A DNA stretch of 64,000 nucleotides, from the NCBI RefSeq assembly GCF_001895145.1, contig NZ_BDIR01000001.1, positions 1-64,000 of the forward strand. Direction: 5' to 3'. Of the stretch, positions 5,409 to 12,458 are shown piece by piece. Below the pieces are notes generated by a model. The model ran no database searches. It had not been told where the DNA came from and saw nothing but the letters and a program-made list of their open reading frames with translations. Origin of the DNA: Arcobacter sp. LA11 (lineage in GTDB: Bacteria; Campylobacterota; Campylobacteria; Campylobacterales; Arcobacteraceae). Position 1 is the first letter of the stretch. Each line of letters begins with the position of its first letter. The position numbers and the translations under genes were made by a program.

Positions 5409-6524
5409 ATGAGATTTTTAATATTTGCAACAATTTTTTTTACCGTTATGACTTTACTTACACTTCTTATTTCAAGAAGGTTTGTAAGAAAACTACACTT
5501 TTCTAAAAGAACAAAGCTTTTTATAAATATATTTTTAGCTATAAATCTTTTAGGTGTAGCAGGATATATGTTTGTACGATATAATCCAACTATTCCTAAC
5601 TGGGCTTACTTTTTATTATCAATACCAATAGGTGTAATTTTTGTACTTTTTGTAGCCACAATATTTTATGAGCTCTCTTCAAGAATTTTAAATGTTATTC
5701 CTATTAATGAAAAACGAAGAACTTTTTTCAAAAAAACTCTAGATATAAGCTCAATCGCTGTTGCAGGTTCAATTAATGCAAAAGCTATGTACAATGCAAG
5801 ACATATTGAGATTGAAGATGTAGATATAAAAATAAGAAACTTAAAACAATCATATAGTATAGTCCAACTAAGTGATATTCATATTGGAGGGCTTATTGAT
5901 AAAAACTTTATCTCTGATTTAGTAGATCAAGTTAATACTTTAAATCCGGATATTGTTGTTATTACAGGAGATATGGTTGATACTAAATTAGAGTACGCAA
6001 AAGAAGCCCTTGATGAACTAAAAAATCTAAAATCTAAATATGGTAACTATTTTATTGTAGGAAACCATGAATACTTTCACGGTGTTACCTCAATTATAGA
6101 TTATGTAAATACCTTAAACATCAAAACCCTTGAAAATGAAAATGTATATATTGGAGAAGAAGGAGAAGGTTTCTTCCTTGCTGGAGTATATGATGTTATG
6201 GGTTACCGTGTAGAAAGCTATAAACCTGATTTATACAAAGCTCTTATAGGAACAGATGAATATCCTATTGTACTCTTAGCTCACCAACCAAAATTTATAG
6301 AAGAAGTAAAAGATGTTGATTTAGTGCTTTCAGGACATACTCATGGAGGACAAATAGTACCATTTAACCTTTTAGTTAAACTTGCACAACCATATGTAAA
6401 AGGTCTACATCAACATGATGAAAACACTCAAATATATATAAACAAAGGAACAGGATTTTGGGGACCACCTATGAGACTAGGTGCAAGTTCTGAGATTACT
6501 AATATAACTCTTACTCCTATGTGA
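5409..6524 (+). CDS. Membrane-anchored metallophosphoesterase (YkuE/YaeI-like)
   Basis: A calcineurin-like phosphoesterase with a membrane-anchoring N-terminal half. Hydrophobic segments are seen at roughly residues 1-22, 38-58 and 66-92. The binuclear metal site motifs follow in order: LSDIHIGG (about residue 155), GDMVD, GNHEYFHG, LAHQP and SGHTHGGQIVP. YkuE/YaeI-type relatives act on lipid-linked or nucleotide phosphates at the membrane; the substrate here is unknown. The final codon overlaps a TGTGA-N6-TCACA palindrome that belongs to the control region of the next gene. Confidence 0.85.
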   Translation: MRFLIFATIFFTVMTLLTLLISRRFVRKLHFSKRTKLFINIFLAINLLGVAGYMFVRYNPTIPNWAYFLLSIPIGVIFVLFVATIFYELSSRILNVIPINEKRRTFFKKTLDISSIAVAGSINAKAMYNARHIEIEDVDIKIRNLKQSYSIVQLSDIHIGGLIDKNFISDLVDQVNTLNPDIVVITGDMVDTKLEYAKEALDELKNLKSKYGNYFIVGNHEYFHGVTSIIDYVNTLNIKTLENENVYIGEEGEGFFLAGVYDVMGYRVESYKPDLYKALIGTDEYPIVLLAHQPKFIEEVKDVDLVLSGHTHGGQIVPFNLLVKLAQPYVKGLHQHDENTQIYINKGTGFWGPPMRLGASSEITNITLTPM

Positions 6525-6560
6525 TTCCAATCACATTAATTTTTTTATCCTTCTGATAAT
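6519..6560 (+). promoter_or_regulatory. Crp-type palindrome and -10 upstream of DUF4242-like gene
   Basis: TGTGA (6520-6524), six bases, then TCACA (6531-6535), flanked by A and T that extend the symmetry. The left half overlaps the stop codon of the phosphoesterase gene. GATAAT at 6555-6560 is a candidate -10, starting 27.5 bp from the palindrome centre. That is close to, but not identical with, the 29.5 bp seen at the other two palindromes of this island. The gene starts at 6604. Confidence 0.7.
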
Positions 6561-6603
6561 CTCTTTATGATGTTTTCATCGAAACAAAATAAAAGGATTA
6601 AGG

Positions 6604-6894
6604 ATGGGAAAAATGAAATTCTTTATGGATACACATGATTCAAGAACAGGTACCTTTCCAGAGGGAATAAAACAAAATGAATTAGATGAGTTTTATAAAG
6701 CATATGCAAAAGCATGTGAAGAAGAAGGCGTAATTTCTGTAAAAACTCATGTAGGAAACTCTGAAGGCAAAGCTTTCTGTTTTAATATGGCAGAGAGTGA
6801 AGAAGCAGTATTTAGAGTACACGAAAAAGTTGGTTTACCATATGATTCTATTGTTGAAATAGATTCAATATATCCACTTAAAGAAAGCAACTAA
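6604..6894 (+). CDS. Small DUF4242-like (nickel-binding-type) protein
   Basis: A 96-residue cytoplasmic protein with no signal or membrane segment. The pattern of a short helix-rich N-terminus, a central (V)ISVKTHV strand, KAFCFNMAESEEAVFRVHEKVGLPYDSIVEI and an acidic end resembles the DUF4242/SCO4226 ferredoxin-like family, some members of which bind nickel. I recognise this from pattern only. AAAAGGATTAAGG provides a strong ribosome site for the ATG at 6604; a second ATG lies three codons downstream. A Crp-type palindrome sits 76 bp upstream, linking the gene to the peroxidase and sulfide genes that carry the same site. Confidence 0.6.
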   Translation: MGKMKFFMDTHDSRTGTFPEGIKQNELDEFYKAYAKACEEEGVISVKTHVGNSEGKAFCFNMAESEEAVFRVHEKVGLPYDSIVEIDSIYPLKESN

Positions 6895-6899
6895 TAAAA

Positions 6900-6924
6900 A
6901 AGCAATCCTATTTTAGGATTGCTT
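6900..6924. terminator. Bidirectional terminator
   Basis: An 11-bp perfect stem (AAGCAATCCTA/TAGGATTGCTT) with a three-base loop lies between two convergent genes. It has A-rich sequence on the left and T-rich sequence on the right, so it can serve both the DUF4242-like gene and the peroxidase gene. Confidence 0.85.
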
Positions 6925-6927
6925 CTT

Positions 6928-8205
6928 CTAATTATTTATATACTCAACAATTTCACCATTTACAGACTCTAAAAATGCAACTATCTTTTTAATTTCATCA
7001 TCACTTATTTTAGTTCTATGTTGATGTTTTACCATAAGTTTTATAGCATCTTCTAACTCTTCTATTCCACCATTATGAAAATATGGATATGTACTTACTA
7101 CATTTCTAAGTAATGGCACTCTAAAAAATCTATCTGGGTCATCTTTTCCTAAAAAGTTCCCTTTATTTTCAAAAGGGAAAACAATATTTGCTAAAAGCTC
7201 TTTTTTAACACTGTTATTTTTCCCATTATGACATGAATTACAAGAAGTTGTTACTATCTTTTTATATGCTTTTTGTTTTGGGAATAGATGAAAAAAACCT
7301 TCACTTATTGCATCCAAATCTTCTTTTCCTAAACTCTTTTCTAAAAATGACACTAAAGATTTATCACTTTTAAAATCCATATCAAAATACTTTCTATTTT
7401 CTTCAAGCTTTGATAAAAAAGTATTGTATCTTTTCTTTAAATCTTTAACCTCTTCAATACTTTGCATACTCCAAATTCTATGATGAACTAAAGGAAATTT
7501 TCTAAGTTCTTGTCCTCCTAAAGCTATACCATTGTGACAACCTACACAACTTTTTGTTATAAAAAGATGTAAGCCTTCTTTCTCTTTTTTATTTAAAGCA
7601 TTTAAATCACCTTCAAGGAAGTTATCATATCGACCTCTTGTAAGTAAGGTCTTTTCATAAGTTGAAATCGCATTTGCAATTTTCTCAAAAGTAATCTTTT
7701 TATTTCCATAAGCTTTGAGAAATAACTCTTCATAAATTTTATTTTCTTCTATTCTTTGTACTGCAAGTTTTGGAGTAATAGACATCTCAAACTTTGCTTG
7801 TAAAGGACCTTTTGCTTGGTCCTGTAAATCTTTACTTCTTCCATTCCAAAAGTATTGTTTTGAAAATGCTGAGTTTAAAACTGTTGGGGTGTTTAGATGA
7901 AAGGGATTTTCTTGTTTTTTATGTCCCACAGCAGTAGATAATCCATCTGCACCACCTTTTTTAAAACTATGACAAGATGCACAGCTTATATCTTTTCCTA
8001 ATGATAAATTTTTATCAAAAAATAGCTTTTTACCCAAGGCAACTTTTGTATGGGAAAGATCTTCTTCTTTTATATTTAACTCTGTTCTTAATGACTTTAA
8101 GTCTTTTGGTACAGGTTTCAAACCATAATAAAGTGCACTTTGAAGTAACTTCTCATCTGCAAACAACGACCCTACTAACAGTATAATTAAAATTGAATAT
8201 TTCAT
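6928..8205 (-). CDS. Tri-haem di-haem-peroxidase-family cytochrome c
   Basis: An exported peroxidase of the CcpA/MauG family, expected to reduce hydrogen peroxide in the periplasm with electrons from the cytochrome c pool. An N-terminal signal peptide (about residues 1-16, ending SLFA) is followed by three CxxCH sites: Cys75-Cys78-His79, Cys220-Cys223-His224 and Cys322-Cys325-His326. The usual enzyme has two. The third lies in an insert of about 100 residues (about 240-345) before the conserved FRVPLLRNV and PYFHNGG C-terminal blocks. At 425 residues it is longer than typical family members (about 320-350). It has its own promoter with a Crp-type palindrome. Peroxidase activity itself is inferred; MauG-like oxidation is an alternative. 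Confidence 0.85.
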   Translation of the reverse strand: MKYSILIILLVGSLFADEKLLQSALYYGLKPVPKDLKSLRTELNIKEEDLSHTKVALGKKLFFDKNLSLGKDISCASCHSFKKGGADGLSTAVGHKKQENPFHLNTPTVLNSAFSKQYFWNGRSKDLQDQAKGPLQAKFEMSITPKLAVQRIEENKIYEELFLKAYGNKKITFEKIANAISTYEKTLLTRGRYDNFLEGDLNALNKKEKEGLHLFITKSCVGCHNGIALGGQELRKFPLVHHRIWSMQSIEEVKDLKKRYNTFLSKLEENRKYFDMDFKSDKSLVSFLEKSLGKEDLDAISEGFFHLFPKQKAYKKIVTTSCNSCHNGKNNSVKKELLANIVFPFENKGNFLGKDDPDRFFRVPLLRNVVSTYPYFHNGGIEELEDAIKLMVKHQHRTKISDDEIKKIVAFLESVNGEIVEYINN

Positions 8206-8226
8206 TTCTTCTCCTTTTTAAAAATA

Positions 8227-8272
8227 ATTCTAATATTTCAGAAAGTTTTTTTATGTGAGGAGAATCACATAA
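8227..8272 (-). promoter_or_regulatory. Class-II-type Crp-like promoter of the tri-haem peroxidase
   Basis: TGTGA (8254-8258), six bases, TCACA (8265-8269); the arms extend to an 8-bp perfect inverted repeat (8251-8258 with 8265-8272). On the minus strand a TAGAAT -10 box begins at 8232, exactly 29.5 bp from the palindrome centre. This puts the palindrome near -41.5, the classical class II activator position of Crp/Fnr proteins. The left arm includes the stop codon of the small ORF 8251-8463. Confidence 0.8.
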
Positions 8273-8463
8273 GAGCATAAAGCTCTTATATTATGAAGAT
8301 TTTTTTTTTCAATAAAATATAGGCTTAATCTAACAATAGGGATACATCCTATAAACAGTACAATATAATTTAAATTTATCACACCATATAATATAAATAA
8401 AAAAGAGAAAAAGAGTCTTAAAAATATTCCTCTTTTTGTTGGGTTACATTTTATAAGTTTCAT
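8251..8463 (-). CDS. Small two-helix membrane protein, DUF2892-like
   Basis: A 70-residue product with two hydrophobic stretches (about 13-30 and 31-48). The pattern, with KCNPTKRG at the start and a Cys near the end in IRALCSYVIL, resembles DUF2892 inner-membrane proteins often found with rhodanese or sulfide genes. The recognition is tentative. It follows the flavoprotein gene by 24 bp and would be the last gene of the 10149-8251 operon. The start has only a weak AGGG site. Its last codons overlap both a Crp-type palindrome and a small hairpin (8269-8289), which is unusual for a coding region, so a shorter or non-functional frame is possible. Confidence 0.5.
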   Translation of the reverse strand: MKLIKCNPTKRGIFLRLFFSFLFILYGVINLNYIVLFIGCIPIVRLSLYFIEKKNLHNIRALCSYVILLT

Positions 8464-8487
8464 ATAAATACCCTAAATATCTGAACT

Positions 8488-9822
8488 CTATAAGAGTCCA
8501 AATATATCCTTAGTAAAGTTTTTATACCATAATTTTGTTGCTTTTGCTGCATCCTCATTGATAGGTGAAAGATAAGAATTCACCTTGACATTATCCTTAT
8601 ATTTATAAGTGTGTGAAACAAATACTGCATCTTTATTTGTAACCATTGAATAACAAATATTACTAGGCATATTCTTTTTATAGTCAAATGTTTCATTTTT
8701 ATATCTTGCAACAATTTCCTTCGCAACTATATAGGCACAAGAGTTTGCCATATACGCACTTTTAGGATATGGATATTCTCCTTGGGCATCTCCTATTACA
8801 TAAACATCTTCATCACTCGTTGACCTAAATGTTGGCTTTCGAAGTTTTGCCCAAGCATTTTCGTACAACTCTAAATTTGCAATATTCACTAAAGAGTTTG
8901 CTTTATTTGGAGGGATTATTGAAGCCTCCTCATATTTAACTTCTAAGGTTTTATATTTTAATTCTTTTTTATCAAAACTTTCTACAAAAATAGTCTTTTT
9001 ATCAAAATCAATATCTTTAAAATTTGTTAAACTTCTATAGTCTATAAAATCTGAATAATATTTATTAAAAGCTTTTAAGAACTTTGAAGCTTTAGCAGCT
9101 GGTTTCTTTCTAGGGTCTAAAATAACAACTCTTCCATCAATATTATTTTGCTTAAAATAGTTTGCAATCATACAAGCTCTTTCATAAGGAGCAGGAGGAC
9201 ATCTATATGAAGAAGAAGGAATTGAGATAATAAAATCTCCCCCTTTGAAGTTTTTAATCATTCTTTTTAAAGCTAAATGCTCACTTCCAGGTTTTAATCC
9301 AGCAGGAGTCTTTTGTCTTGATTTTTGAGCTTTTGAAATATCACTATCATACAACTTAGTATAATCATAATCAATTCCACAAGCCATAATCATATAATCA
9401 TATTTTACTTTTGTTTTTGTTGTATATATTAATTTTTCATCCCTATTTATCTTAACAATCTTTTCATTTACAAAGGAGTACTTATATTTATTTACAGCAC
9501 CAAAATAGTCAAAATTCAAATCTTCAAAACTAACATAAGGAATTCCTCCAAGCCATAAATTACTATATGGACAAGAAATAAAGTTTTGTTTTTGTTCAAT
9601 AACAGTTACTTCTAACTTTGGATTGAGTTCTTTTAAAAACTTTGCAATACTCAATCCTGCATAACCTCCTCCACAAACAGCTATGTTTGTAGTTTTGTTA
9701 ATCAAATCATTCTCAGGATTATATTGGCATTCAAATTTTCCCTTTGCTACACTATCTGTACTATTTAATAACGCCGCACTTATTGCAGAGTATTTTATAA
9801 ACTCTCTTCTTTTCATTTTCAC
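8488..9822 (-). CDS. Flavocytochrome c sulfide dehydrogenase-type flavoprotein (FccB/SoxF-like)
   Basis: A periplasmic FAD enzyme expected to oxidise sulfide or a polysulfide. A twin-arginine-type leader (KRREFIKYSA) precedes the FAD-binding GGGYAGLS (residues 51-58). Residues around Cys208 (YRCPPAPYERA) and Cys390 (NICYSMV) match the positions of the redox-active disulfide of FccB. VYVIGDAQ (about 340-347) is the second FAD motif. The 444-residue length fits the family. It starts 3 bp after the preceding small exported protein, so the two are co-expressed. In known systems the partner is a haem protein FccA, but here the neighbour has no CxxCH. Direct transfer to a quinone or a separate cytochrome is possible. 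Confidence 0.82.
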   Translation of the reverse strand: MKMKRREFIKYSAISAALLNSTDSVAKGKFECQYNPENDLINKTTNIAVCGGGYAGLSIAKFLKELNPKLEVTVIEQKQNFISCPYSNLWLGGIPYVSFEDLNFDYFGAVNKYKYSFVNEKIVKINRDEKLIYTTKTKVKYDYMIMACGIDYDYTKLYDSDISKAQKSRQKTPAGLKPGSEHLALKRMIKNFKGGDFIISIPSSSYRCPPAPYERACMIANYFKQNNIDGRVVILDPRKKPAAKASKFLKAFNKYYSDFIDYRSLTNFKDIDFDKKTIFVESFDKKELKYKTLEVKYEEASIIPPNKANSLVNIANLELYENAWAKLRKPTFRSTSDEDVYVIGDAQGEYPYPKSAYMANSCAYIVAKEIVARYKNETFDYKKNMPSNICYSMVTNKDAVFVSHTYKYKDNVKVNSYLSPINEDAAKATKLWYKNFTKDIFGLL

Positions 9823-9825
9823 TCC

Positions 9826-10149
9826 TTATTCACAAGTTGGAAAAACTCTTGCATCAACTGCATTAGCTTTTACATATGCTTTTAAAAAAACAAGTGATTC
9901 ATTAAAACTTTTCTCTTTTAATGTCTCCGATAATTCAGAATTTTCTTTTACCAACTCCTGTTTTAAAAGATATCCTTCATCTTTAAACATCTCTTCCCAC
10001 TCTTTTATGGTATGTTTTTTTGCAAAACTTTTTGCATCATACTTTAAACTATCCTCTAGTAAAAATGAGTAATAAGTTTCACCTTTTTGTATATCACCTG
10101 CAAAAAGCGTATATCCAAGACATACTATTATTAGTAATTTCTTTACCAT
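9826..10149 (-). CDS. Exported haem-less protein with cytochrome-c-like pattern
   Basis: A 107-residue protein with a clear signal peptide (about residues 1-17, ending LFA). The mature part begins GDIQKGETYYS, followed by FAKKHTIKEWEEMF and a final FPTCE. This is the layout of short periplasmic cytochrome-like proteins, but there is no CxxCH and the only cysteine in the mature part is near the C-terminus. It precedes the FccB-like gene by 3 bp, where the haem subunit FccA is usually encoded. I read it as a partner subunit that does not bind covalent haem; function unknown. Its TACAAT -10 and the shared palindrome at 10208-10223 define the operon promoter. Confidence 0.6.
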   Translation of the reverse strand: MVKKLLIIVCLGYTLFAGDIQKGETYYSFLLEDSLKYDAKSFAKKHTIKEWEEMFKDEGYLLKQELVKENSELSETLKEKSFNESLVFLKAYVKANAVDARVFPTCE

Positions 10150-10180
10150 TTCTTATCCTTTTTATTAAATTTATAAACAA

Positions 10181-10250
10181 ATTGTAAATAAAAGAAAAAT
10201 AGTTTTATGTGATAGCTATCACAGAAGAAATTTTTTCAATCTCTTATAAT
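10181..10250. promoter_or_regulatory. Divergent class-II-type promoter pair around one Crp-like palindrome
   Basis: A perfect 16-bp palindrome, TGTGATAGCTATCACA (10208-10223), lies midway between two divergent genes. A TATAAT box (10245-10250) for the rightward DsrE gene and a TACAAT box (10186 back to 10181) for the leftward operon both begin 29.5 bp from its centre. A single dimer could therefore sit at -41.5 for both promoters. The start codons (10281 and 10149) are also almost equidistant from it. Confidence 0.85.
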
Positions 10251-10280
10251 TCCCTTGCAATTAACATAAAAGGAGAAAAA

Positions 10281-10712
10281 ATGAAACTAAACAAAAAAAT
10301 TGCAAGTGCGTTTATGATGTTATTCTTAACAGTAGGAGCTTATGCTTCAGAAGGATATAAAAACCTTTTTGTAACAATTACATCAGATAGCCTGAAAGTA
10401 TCAGGTATGGGTGTAGCTGTATCAAATGCTTTTCAAAGTGCAGGTGTAAATACAACAATCCTTATTGGAGCAGAAGCTGCAAAGTTAGCTCTGAAAAAAG
10501 GTAAACAAGAAGCATTTGGACCAACGGGAAAATCAGTTAAAGAGATGTTAGTTGGTTTATCAAAAAAAGGTGGAAAAGTTATGCTTTGTGGTATGTGTGC
10601 AAAATATGGTGAGATTAAACAATCTGATGTAATAGAAGGTGTTAAGATAGTATCTCCTGGTGATGTAGCAGGAGCTTTACTTGCGCCAGCAACACAAACT
10701 TTATCATTTTAA
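10281..10712 (+). CDS. Exported DsrE/DsrF-family protein
   Basis: DsrE-type proteins bind or transfer sulfur through a cysteine. This 143-residue version has a signal peptide (about residues 1-22, ending GAYAS), so it should act in the periplasm, unlike classical cytoplasmic DsrEFH or TusBCD. The body shows the fold pattern NLFVTITSDS, strands around TTILIGAEAAKLALKKG, and VMLCGMCAKYG with two cysteines, one of which is the likely sulfur carrier. The start at 10281 has AAAAGGAG upstream; an in-frame GTG at 10209 lies inside the promoter palindrome and is rejected. It is transcribed divergently from the sulfide-dehydrogenase operon. The Crp-type regulator follows 34 bp downstream. Confidence 0.8.
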   Translation: MKLNKKIASAFMMLFLTVGAYASEGYKNLFVTITSDSLKVSGMGVAVSNAFQSAGVNTTILIGAEAAKLALKKGKQEAFGPTGKSVKEMLVGLSKKGGKVMLCGMCAKYGEIKQSDVIEGVKIVSPGDVAGALLAPATQTLSF

Positions 10713-10717
10713 AGAAC

Positions 10718-10732
10718 GCGGGCTTTGCCCGC
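10718..10732 (+). terminator. GC-rich hairpin between DsrE gene and regulator
   Basis: GCGGGC-TTT-GCCCGC forms a 6-bp all-GC stem with a three-base loop, followed by ACTAAAGG rather than a T run. It probably acts as an attenuator or RNA stabiliser, so the regulator gene could still be read through from the DsrE promoter. Confidence 0.6.
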
Positions 10733-10746
10733 ACTAAAGGAAATTT

Positions 10747-11364
10747 ATGGAACTTTTTGATTATCATTGCTTTAGTAATTTAACTCCTAAAGAAAAAGAA
10801 AAGATTTCTAAAGAGTCTAGAAAAGTTATTCTTCCAAGTGAACAAATATTATATTATGTAGGAGATATCTGTGATGATATCCTTTTTTTAAAAAGTGGTA
10901 GTATAAAAATATATATTCAGCCAAAAGAACTAAGTTCCGAAGAGATGACTTTATATGAATTAAAATCTGGAAGTCAATGTGTTGTAAATCTATTTAGTAC
11001 AATATCTTCTCAACCTGCATTAGCTAATGCAATTACAGTTACGCCAATTGAAGGCTGGTTACTTCCTAGAGAAACACTTCTTTGGCTAATAGAAAACTCT
11101 TCTTCATTTAGAGAATTTAAAATGAATGATGTAAATAAAAGAATAACAGCACTTATAAATCTTCTAACTAATATTAAGTTTTCAAATATAGAACAACAAC
11201 TTTTAAACTGGTTATATGTACAAGGTCTTGATAAAATTAAAATTACTCACGAAAATATAGCTTGTATTATTGGAGTTACTAGAGAAACAGTAAGTAGAAA
11301 CTTAAAAAAATTAGAACAAAAAGGGCATTTAAAACTAGGAAGAGGAATGATCTTTTTAGATTAA
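10747..11364 (+). CDS. Crp/Fnr-family transcription regulator (TGTGA-type recognition helix)
   Basis: A 205-residue regulator: cyclic-nucleotide-binding-like barrel (about 1-115), dimer helix (about 118-145), and C-terminal winged helix with ITHENIACIIGVTRETVSRNLKKL. The recognition helix carries Arg179, Glu180 and Arg184 in the order (RETVSR) that E. coli CRP uses to read TGTGA. This matches the three local TGTGA-N6-TCACA palindromes. No FNR-type N-terminal cysteine cluster is present; cysteines 8, 42 and 78 are scattered and could sense thiol or sulfide, but that is speculation. With the DsrE gene 34 bp upstream it may be under its own control. The terminator at its end is shared with the convergent second regulator. 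Confidence 0.85.
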   Translation: MELFDYHCFSNLTPKEKEKISKESRKVILPSEQILYYVGDICDDILFLKSGSIKIYIQPKELSSEEMTLYELKSGSQCVVNLFSTISSQPALANAITVTPIEGWLLPRETLLWLIENSSSFREFKMNDVNKRITALINLLTNIKFSNIEQQLLNWLYVQGLDKIKITHENIACIIGVTRETVSRNLKKLEQKGHLKLGRGMIFLD

Positions 11365-11373: not shown

Positions 11374-12009
11374 TTATAAAAATTGATTTAAAAGTTTTTG
11401 ACGATCTACTATTTTAATATTTCTTTTTTCTTTCTCAATTATTCCATCTTTAATAAGCTTTGTAATTTTTCTTGAAAGTGTTTCTTCTCTTATATTTAAA
11501 ATCTCTGCAATTTTTACTTGTTTCAAAGTATTAAGAGATGCTTCATTATCATATATAAACTTTGCAACTTTTGCATTTATATCAATAGTCATATTTGTAT
11601 GAATAAAATTTTCCAAATATTTAATTTTTCTACTAAGTGATTTAATAAAAAGTGTCGAAATTTCTTTTTTATGTAAAAAATTATCTCTGAATTTTTCATA
11701 ATCAATCAAAATAACTTCAGATTCTGTTTCAAAAGAACAATTTGCAGGGAAAGGATTTTCTTCATAATTTGCAATTTCTGCAATAAAAGAAGGTGCATTT
11801 ATATTATGAATAATAATTTCATTGTCCTTATAATCGTGCTTATAAAGCTTAACAACACCACTTACTAATAAATATAAATATTTAGACTCATCGCCTCTAT
11901 AAAAAAGAATCTCATTCTTCGAATATTTTTTTAATATAGATATTTTTTGTAACTCTTCTATTTCATTTTCATCTAGCGTACTAAAAAAATAAAACTCTTT
12001 TAAATTCAT
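11374..12009 (-). CDS. Crp/Fnr-family regulator (NssR/DNR-like)
   Basis: A second Crp/Fnr regulator, 211 residues from the chosen ATG at 12009, which has a GAGAAG site upstream; the frame runs 17 codons further only by using a TTG. It has a sensor barrel (about 1-110), dimer helix (about 118-142) and winged helix ending in LNIREETLSRKITKL. The helix reads EETLSR, without the CRP-type Arg at the first position, so its target should differ from TGTGA and resemble FNR/NssR-type sites. Only one cysteine (PANCSF) is present, so no 4Fe-4S sensor. It is divergent from the YgbA-type gene, which points to nitric-oxide or nitrosative-stress control; this is inference. Confidence 0.8.
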   Translation of the reverse strand: MNLKEFYFFSTLDENEIEELQKISILKKYSKNEILFYRGDESKYLYLLVSGVVKLYKHDYKDNEIIIHNINAPSFIAEIANYEENPFPANCSFETESEVILIDYEKFRDNFLHKKEISTLFIKSLSRKIKYLENFIHTNMTIDINAKVAKFIYDNEASLNTLKQVKIAEILNIREETLSRKITKLIKDGIIEKEKRNIKIVDRQKLLNQFL

Positions 12010-12104
12010 AACTTCTCTTTTCTTGATAAACATCATTGCATTACTAAAAATTTTATACAAAAATGATAAAATAGAATTTAAAATAAAAGAGTAACTTTTT
12101 AATC

Positions 12105-12458
12105 ATGGAAATAGTAAAGTTTAAAGAAGAAATTAATACCTTAAAAAAATTCTTTGAAGTCTATTGTAAAGAAAAAGACGTAGACCAAAAAATTATTACA
12201 AAAACACTAAACTACAAAAATGAAGAAATAAAGATTGAGCTAAATTTATGCCCTGAATGTCTTAGAAAAATAAACTATTCTTTTGATAGATTATTAGAAT
12301 GTCCTCACGATATAAAGCCTAGATGTAGGACTTGTCCTACTCCATGTTATGAAAAAAAACAGTGGAAAGAAGCAGCAAAAATAATGCGTTATAGTGGAAT
12401 GAGGCTAGGGTTACTCTCATTAAATAAAAAAATAAAAAATATTTTTAAAAGAAACTAA
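12105..12458 (+). CDS. YgbA-type nitrous-oxide-stimulated promoter family protein
   Basis: A 117-residue cysteine-rich cytoplasmic protein. Cys49-x2-Cys52, Cys66, Cys74-x2-Cys77 and Cys81 are arranged as LCPEC, ECPH, RCRTCPTPCY, followed by KIMRYSGMRL. This is the signature of the YgbA_NO family, in E. coli controlled by NsrR and linked to recovery from nitric oxide. The six cysteines suggest metal or Fe-S binding. It is divergently transcribed (95 bp apart) from a Crp/Fnr regulator. That neighbour probably controls it, but I could not identify an operator with confidence in the AT-rich gap. Confidence 0.8.
   Translation: MEIVKFKEEINTLKKFFEVYCKEKDVDQKIITKTLNYKNEEIKIELNLCPECLRKINYSFDRLLECPHDIKPRCRTCPTPCYEKKQWKEAAKIMRYSGMRLGLLSLNKKIKNIFKRN

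Follow-up and report, generated by a model that had tools for sequence, protein, structure and literature searches.

Three TGTGA-N6-TCACA palindromes in the window, i.e. the whole 64 kb stretch of DNA analysed, are very probably the operators of a local class II CRP-type regulator encoded at 10747-11364, which would activate the genes for a tri-haem peroxidase, a DUF4242 protein and a DsrE-family protein together with its own gene, as well as an FccB operon. In the proposed mechanism, a dimer of the regulator would bind TGTGA-N6-TCACA centred near -41.5, stand in for the -35 element and activate RNA polymerase in class II fashion, a mode of action well established for CRP-type proteins. The predicted targets, read as genes of periplasmic peroxide/sulfur redox chemistry, are the tri-haem peroxidase, the DUF4242 protein and DsrE plus the regulator gene; a joint DsrE-regulator transcript would exert positive feedback on the regulator, which is thus probably self-activating. 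In this genome, the FccB-like sulfide-dehydrogenase operon would be driven from palindrome 3 in reverse. The reading offers a concrete activator, DNA site, promoter geometry and set of targets in several families of the order, and can be tested directly.

Palindromes and promoter geometry

All three palindromes postulated by the earlier note are exact and lie where it had placed them (Table 1). Within the 64 kb, the exact motif occurs 3 times against 0.09 expected, and at least three copies were present in 0/100 shuffled sequences. A pattern search of all 53 contigs of the genome (3.10 Mb) likewise yielded three copies, all inside 6520-10223, and three random points would fall within 3.7 kb with a probability of p ~4e-6. 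The genome-wide total is unremarkable by itself, as the reversed control pattern is also found three times in the genome; the clustering of the three palindromes is remarkable. A genome-wide CRP regulon was rejected, since there is no fourth exact copy of the motif in the genome. Palindrome 1 shares bases with the stop codon of the phosphoesterase gene preceding it, and palindrome 2 with the 3' end of the small ORF 8251-8463 (-). No Rfam families were found in 6400-10800.

Table 1. Positions of palindromes, promoter elements and genes in the window.
Feature	Position	Strand	Details
Palindrome 1	6520..6535	.	TGTGATTCCAATCACA; 5' of DUF4242 gene
Probable -10 TAATCT, DUF4242 gene	6557..6562	+	29.5 bp from palindrome 1 centre
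Alternative -10 GATAAT, DUF4242 gene	6555-6560		27.5 bp from palindrome 1 centre
DUF4242 / SCO4226-like protein, 96 aa	6604..6894	+	Pfam PF14026, E 3.8e-15
Tri-haem cytochrome c peroxidase/MauG-type, 425 aa	6928..8205	-	Pfam PF03150, E 1.6e-52
-10 TAGAAT, peroxidase gene	8227..8232	-	29.5 bp from palindrome 2 centre
Small membrane ORF, 70 aa, last gene of FccB operon	8251..8463	-	ORF list
Palindrome 2	8254..8269	.	TGTGAGGAGAATCACA; 5' of peroxidase gene
FccB-like flavoprotein (flavocytochrome c sulfide dehydrogenase)	8488..9816	-	PF21706 1e-26, PF09242 6.7e-10
Apparently exported 107 aa protein, first gene of FccB operon	9826..10149	-	
-10 TACAAT, FccB operon	10181..10186	-	29.5 bp from palindrome 3 centre
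Palindrome 3	10208..10223	.	TGTGATAGCTATCACA; used in both directions (FccB operon, DsrE)
-10 TATAAT, DsrE	10245..10250	+	29.5 bp from palindrome 3 centre
Apparently exported DsrE-family protein, 143 aa	10281..10712	+	Pfam PF02635, E 6.8e-9
Crp/Fnr-type regulator, 205 aa, proposed palindrome reader	10747..11364	+	PF13545 1.3e-10, PF00027 2e-8

The boxes TAGAAT, TACAAT and TATAAT each start 29.5 bp from the palindrome centre, confirming the spacing proposed for these three promoters. For the DUF4242 gene, a -10 box at 27.5 bp had been suggested; GATAAT is indeed present there, but TAATCT at 29.5 bp is the likelier box, albeit a weak one (3/6). As the DUF4242 promoters of all relatives contain TACAAT at 29.5 bp, the promoter in the window is probably no exception to this register.

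The earlier note had made its reading depend on the conservation of site and spacing in related genomes, and both are conserved: in promoters chosen by palindrome and gene direction alone, TAnnnT starts exactly 29.5 bp from the centre in 19/19 palindrome-defined promoters from six genomes, with at least a 4/6 match to TATAAT in 18/19. Among 5000 shuffles, the maximum at any offset was 7, compared to the 19 observed at 29.5 bp. These 19 promoters are not independent: being orthologous to one another, they represent about seven gene classes (peroxidase, two-haem cytochrome c, DsrE, DUF4242, FccB operon, monooxygenase and the regulator itself) and count as closer to seven separate cases than to 19. 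Seven directions without a known target start lack the 29.5 bp box, except for one TAATCT behind palindrome 1. That the palindromes represent chance occurrences or other structures, such as terminator stems or repeats, with a merely coincidental spacing, therefore has a negligible probability: their genome-wide number equals that of the reversed control, but this reading is opposed by the clustering, by the 19/19 spacing at 29.5 bp and by the co-localisation of palindromes and regulator in other genomes and families.

In the promoter set as a group, no -35 element above chance was detected (best match 2.69 versus 2.63 in shuffled sequences), and the -10 mean over the same set is 4.97 of 6; the 16 later promoters included in this -35 test were partly found via their -10 and are excluded from the spacing evidence. 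Thus, both the 29.5 bp spacing to the -10 and the missing -35 expected of class II promoters are seen. These features also bear on the alternative that the same regulator acts as a repressor, blocking the -35 region from its position near -41.5 until an inducer releases it. Some Crp/Fnr proteins do repress, and the palindromes overlap the expected -35 position. However, spacing exact to the base pair across about seven gene classes fits class II activation and is not needed by a repressor, and likewise the missing -35 hexamer is expected under class II activation and not required for repression. We therefore regard repression as unlikely and favour activation by the 10747-11364 protein.

A CRP-like regulator encoded beside DsrE

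The regulator gene is located directly 3' of DsrE, separated by a gap of 34 bp. A hairpin between the two genes (GCGGGC-UUU-GCCCGC, z -1.6) was considered as a terminator and rejected, as it lacks a U-tract. The protein belongs to the Crp/Fnr superfamily, combining a cNMP-binding-type domain with a Crp-type HTH, and its structure model (pLDDT 87) shows the CRP fold according to Foldseek. E. coli CRP contacts TGTGA through R180, E181 and R185. The same combination of three residues and TGTGA half-site is found for the regulator studied here, whose recognition helix reads TRETVSR as compared to SRETVGR in E. coli CRP (sequence from NC_000913.3). The likeness to E. coli CRP class II promoters comprises the TGTGA half-site, the N6 spacing, the R-E-x-x-x-R helix and the CRP fold, and extends to the centre lying 29.5 bp from the start of the -10, as for a CRP site centred at -41.5. 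In contrast to CRP, with which it shares ~22% identity, the regulator has lost the cAMP contacts, E72, R82 and S83 being replaced by L, L and A, contains an invariant Cys78 and serves a local rather than a global regulon. Orthology to E. coli CRP, the cAMP receptor, was rejected on the basis of the replaced cAMP residues and of the CRP equivalog profile, whose cut-off of 266 bits far exceeds the regulator's score of 35.

Cys78 is invariant in 40/40 family regulators, embedded in the motif G-(E/S)-Q-C-x-(V/I)-N, and in the model it precedes immediately the helix that replaces CRP's cAMP loop; Cys42 is kept in 32/40. Since the cAMP contacts are replaced and Cys78 is invariant at the position of CRP's cAMP-binding loop, thiol sensing is a plausible signal and our leading guess, and an oxidant or sulfane sulfur is tentatively favoured because the predicted targets are an apparently exported DsrE protein, an FccB-like protein and a haem peroxidase. 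The closest solved relative by sequence, the uncharacterised Crp/Fnr protein of Eubacterium rectale in PDB 3dv8 (family profile E 1.6e-38), also has a Cys at the Cys78 position; the kinship is only distant, and the title of the entry gives neither function nor site.

Alternatively, the palindromes might be read by a second Crp/Fnr protein encoded nearby (11374-12009, -), which also contains a Crp/Fnr HTH, or by a global CRP. However, the helix of the former, IREETLSR, has a Glu in place of CRP Arg180, and a TTGAT-N4-ATCAT box precedes its own gene; this different helix and TTGAT-type box render it an unlikely reader. Moreover, this protein was not recognised in the clusters of relatives, where the orthologue of the 10747 gene always was, and the second Crp/Fnr as reader was rejected on these three grounds. 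A global CRP in turn would need sites elsewhere, and the genome holds no further exact copy. Taken together, it is very unlikely that either of them reads the palindromes, and we retain the regulator beside DsrE as the reader. The region 11374-12458 is probably a separate nitrosative switch: it comprises the second Crp/Fnr gene, with an FNR-like helix and its TTGATAAACATCAT box (12023-12036), and a YgbA-type (nitrous oxide-stimulated) gene transcribed divergently from it.

Conservation of the cluster in Arcobacteraceae

In a sample of 104 Arcobacteraceae genomes, orthologues of the regulator with 68-72% identity are present in five more genomes. The six regulator-bearing genomes span four genera, and each orthologue is accompanied by 1-3 TGTGA-N6-TCACA palindromes within a few kb. 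When the 104 genomes were searched with a composite motif consisting of the palindrome, 21 bp and TAnnnT, the matches were mostly located beside the regulator or its relatives. The three matches inspected in genomes without the regulator (L119, L120 and L121) all lie in coding sequence and were discarded as chance. In one genome (G007), the regulator gene itself lies behind a palindrome, and two DUF4242 genes on a separate contig retain both site and spacing, indicating that the pairing of site and gene is more than a by-product of neighbourhood. In another (G100, L073:8593-8979), the conserved site and spacing are found 5' of an antibiotic-monooxygenase-like gene with an FAD monooxygenase gene behind it, possibly an extra member of the regulon. 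The end of the contig at L072:13100-17889 resembles a long CRISPR array, with FNTSYVLVR / ISIHHMFWFE recurring in its spurious ORFs.

The full-length tri-haem peroxidase is present in exactly the six regulator-bearing genomes of the 104, the others encoding the ordinary di-haem enzyme only; random placement would give this six/six match with a probability of 6.6e-10 if relatedness is ignored. The third CxxCH is located within an insertion in domain 2, as judged by PDB alignment. This insertion of ~100 residues separates the second haem site from the FRVPLLRNV...PYFHNG motif and is missing from the best PDB match. Close DUF4242 homologues occur in 4/104 genomes and close DsrE homologues in three genomes, in both cases all among the six with the regulator. 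A palindrome site also stands 5' of DUF4242 in G002, G084 and G007, and at L118:6965-7783 DUF4242 genes are arranged in tandem; the second has an apparent Tat signal, suggesting that an exported form exists as well. DsrE homologues with 67-71% identity adjoin the regulator in G072 and G100, and homologues with 42-53% identity do so in other families.

By sequence comparison, the conserved core consists of the tri-haem peroxidase, a two-haem cytochrome c, DsrE and the regulator; the two-haem cytochrome c is missing from the locus in the window. FccB was rejected as a core member. Its homologues are common in the family (62/104 genomes; this genome has additional copies), none was found within the regulator clusters of relatives, the close ones being located elsewhere, and an FccB promoter with a palindrome is seen in this genome only. 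Here, the FccB operon was apparently placed beside the DsrE palindrome, using palindrome 3 in reverse. Its FccB-like protein has an RR (Tat-like) signal, the 107 aa protein gave no family match, and the 70 aa ORF gave no Pfam match and has a 49%-identical counterpart in the cluster of a relative (L070). The activator-controlled module described by the earlier note is hence supported, with the qualifications that the FccB operon falls outside its conserved core and that the regulator within the cluster had not been named; its proposed role in peroxide and sulfur redox chemistry is a prediction from annotation only.

Residue 181 and half-site across the order

In other families of the order (G107, G349, G369, G258, G167, G346 and G344), regulators with 42-54% identity adjoin DsrE, the tri-haem peroxidase or the two-haem cytochrome, and sites are present in most cases; near three regulators with 45-47% identity (L188, L192 and L193), the site is degenerate or missing. 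Order-wide, i.e. in 399 genomes, a family regulator is found no more than 5 kb away from 13 of the 33 site loci (0.02 expected). In an open scan fixing only TGT...ACA, the pairing of the arms and the -10 register, loci with a match always combined Glu181 with TGTGA and Val181 with TGTAAC, and Pro181 was found with TGTATA (n=2). Composite sites with TGTAAC have a family regulator within 5 kb in 12/21 cases (0.016 expected), and those examined are located 5' of small YgaP-like membrane genes or DsrE. This code agrees with the correlation between residues 180/181 and half-site bases described by Rodionov et al. 2005 (PMC1274295). A subfamily associated with YHS proteins has Glu and hybrid sites of the type TGTAAC-N5-TCACA, which are not fully explained by a simple residue-181 code; at L077:7670, L079:5437 and L081:7738, the halves are TGTAA or TGTAT / TGTGA in the same -10 register. 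In the regulator tree, Glu181 occurs in two or more distinct clades, indicating that residue 181 and half-site changed together more than once. The family thus provides a natural series, in which one helix residue and one site base vary together, for the study of regulator rewiring.

Local regulons are found in many bacteria for HcpR, in which residues 180/181 likewise track half-site bases. However, HcpR controls hcp/frdX, and the targets here are the peroxidase, DsrE and DUF4242; identity with HcpR was rejected, as the cluster contains no hcp and the genome has no exact copy of the motif outside the cluster. Other Crp/Fnr regulators of Campylobacterota include NssR of Campylobacter jejuni and NssA/B/C of Wolinella. 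NssR combines A180/Q181 with TTAAC-N4-GTTAA, and the consensus used for the Wolinella type is TTGA-N6-TCAA, in contrast to R/E with TGTGA-N6-TCACA here, and identity with NssR was rejected on these residues and sites. According to a 2019 review (PMC6682613), Campylobacterota have no FNR, ArcA or NarP orthologue and A. butzleri no CRP/FNR-family homologue, and we found no description of the regulator, of its site in this order or of the module in open-licence papers. Tentatively, these proteins may form an undescribed CRP-like family of Campylobacterota, in which the invariant cysteine in the former cAMP loop senses an oxidant or sulfane sulfur, and whose subfamilies changed the half-site via residue 181 and kept the -41.5 geometry, each with a small local periplasmic redox regulon; as a whole, we consider this possible rather than probable.

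More distant Glu-181 regulators are likewise accompanied by TGTGA sites in the same register (L115:7173, L116:4780, L117:6463 and L195:5327), with a thioredoxin-like operon downstream or, in a different family, a molybdopterin oxidoreductase gene.
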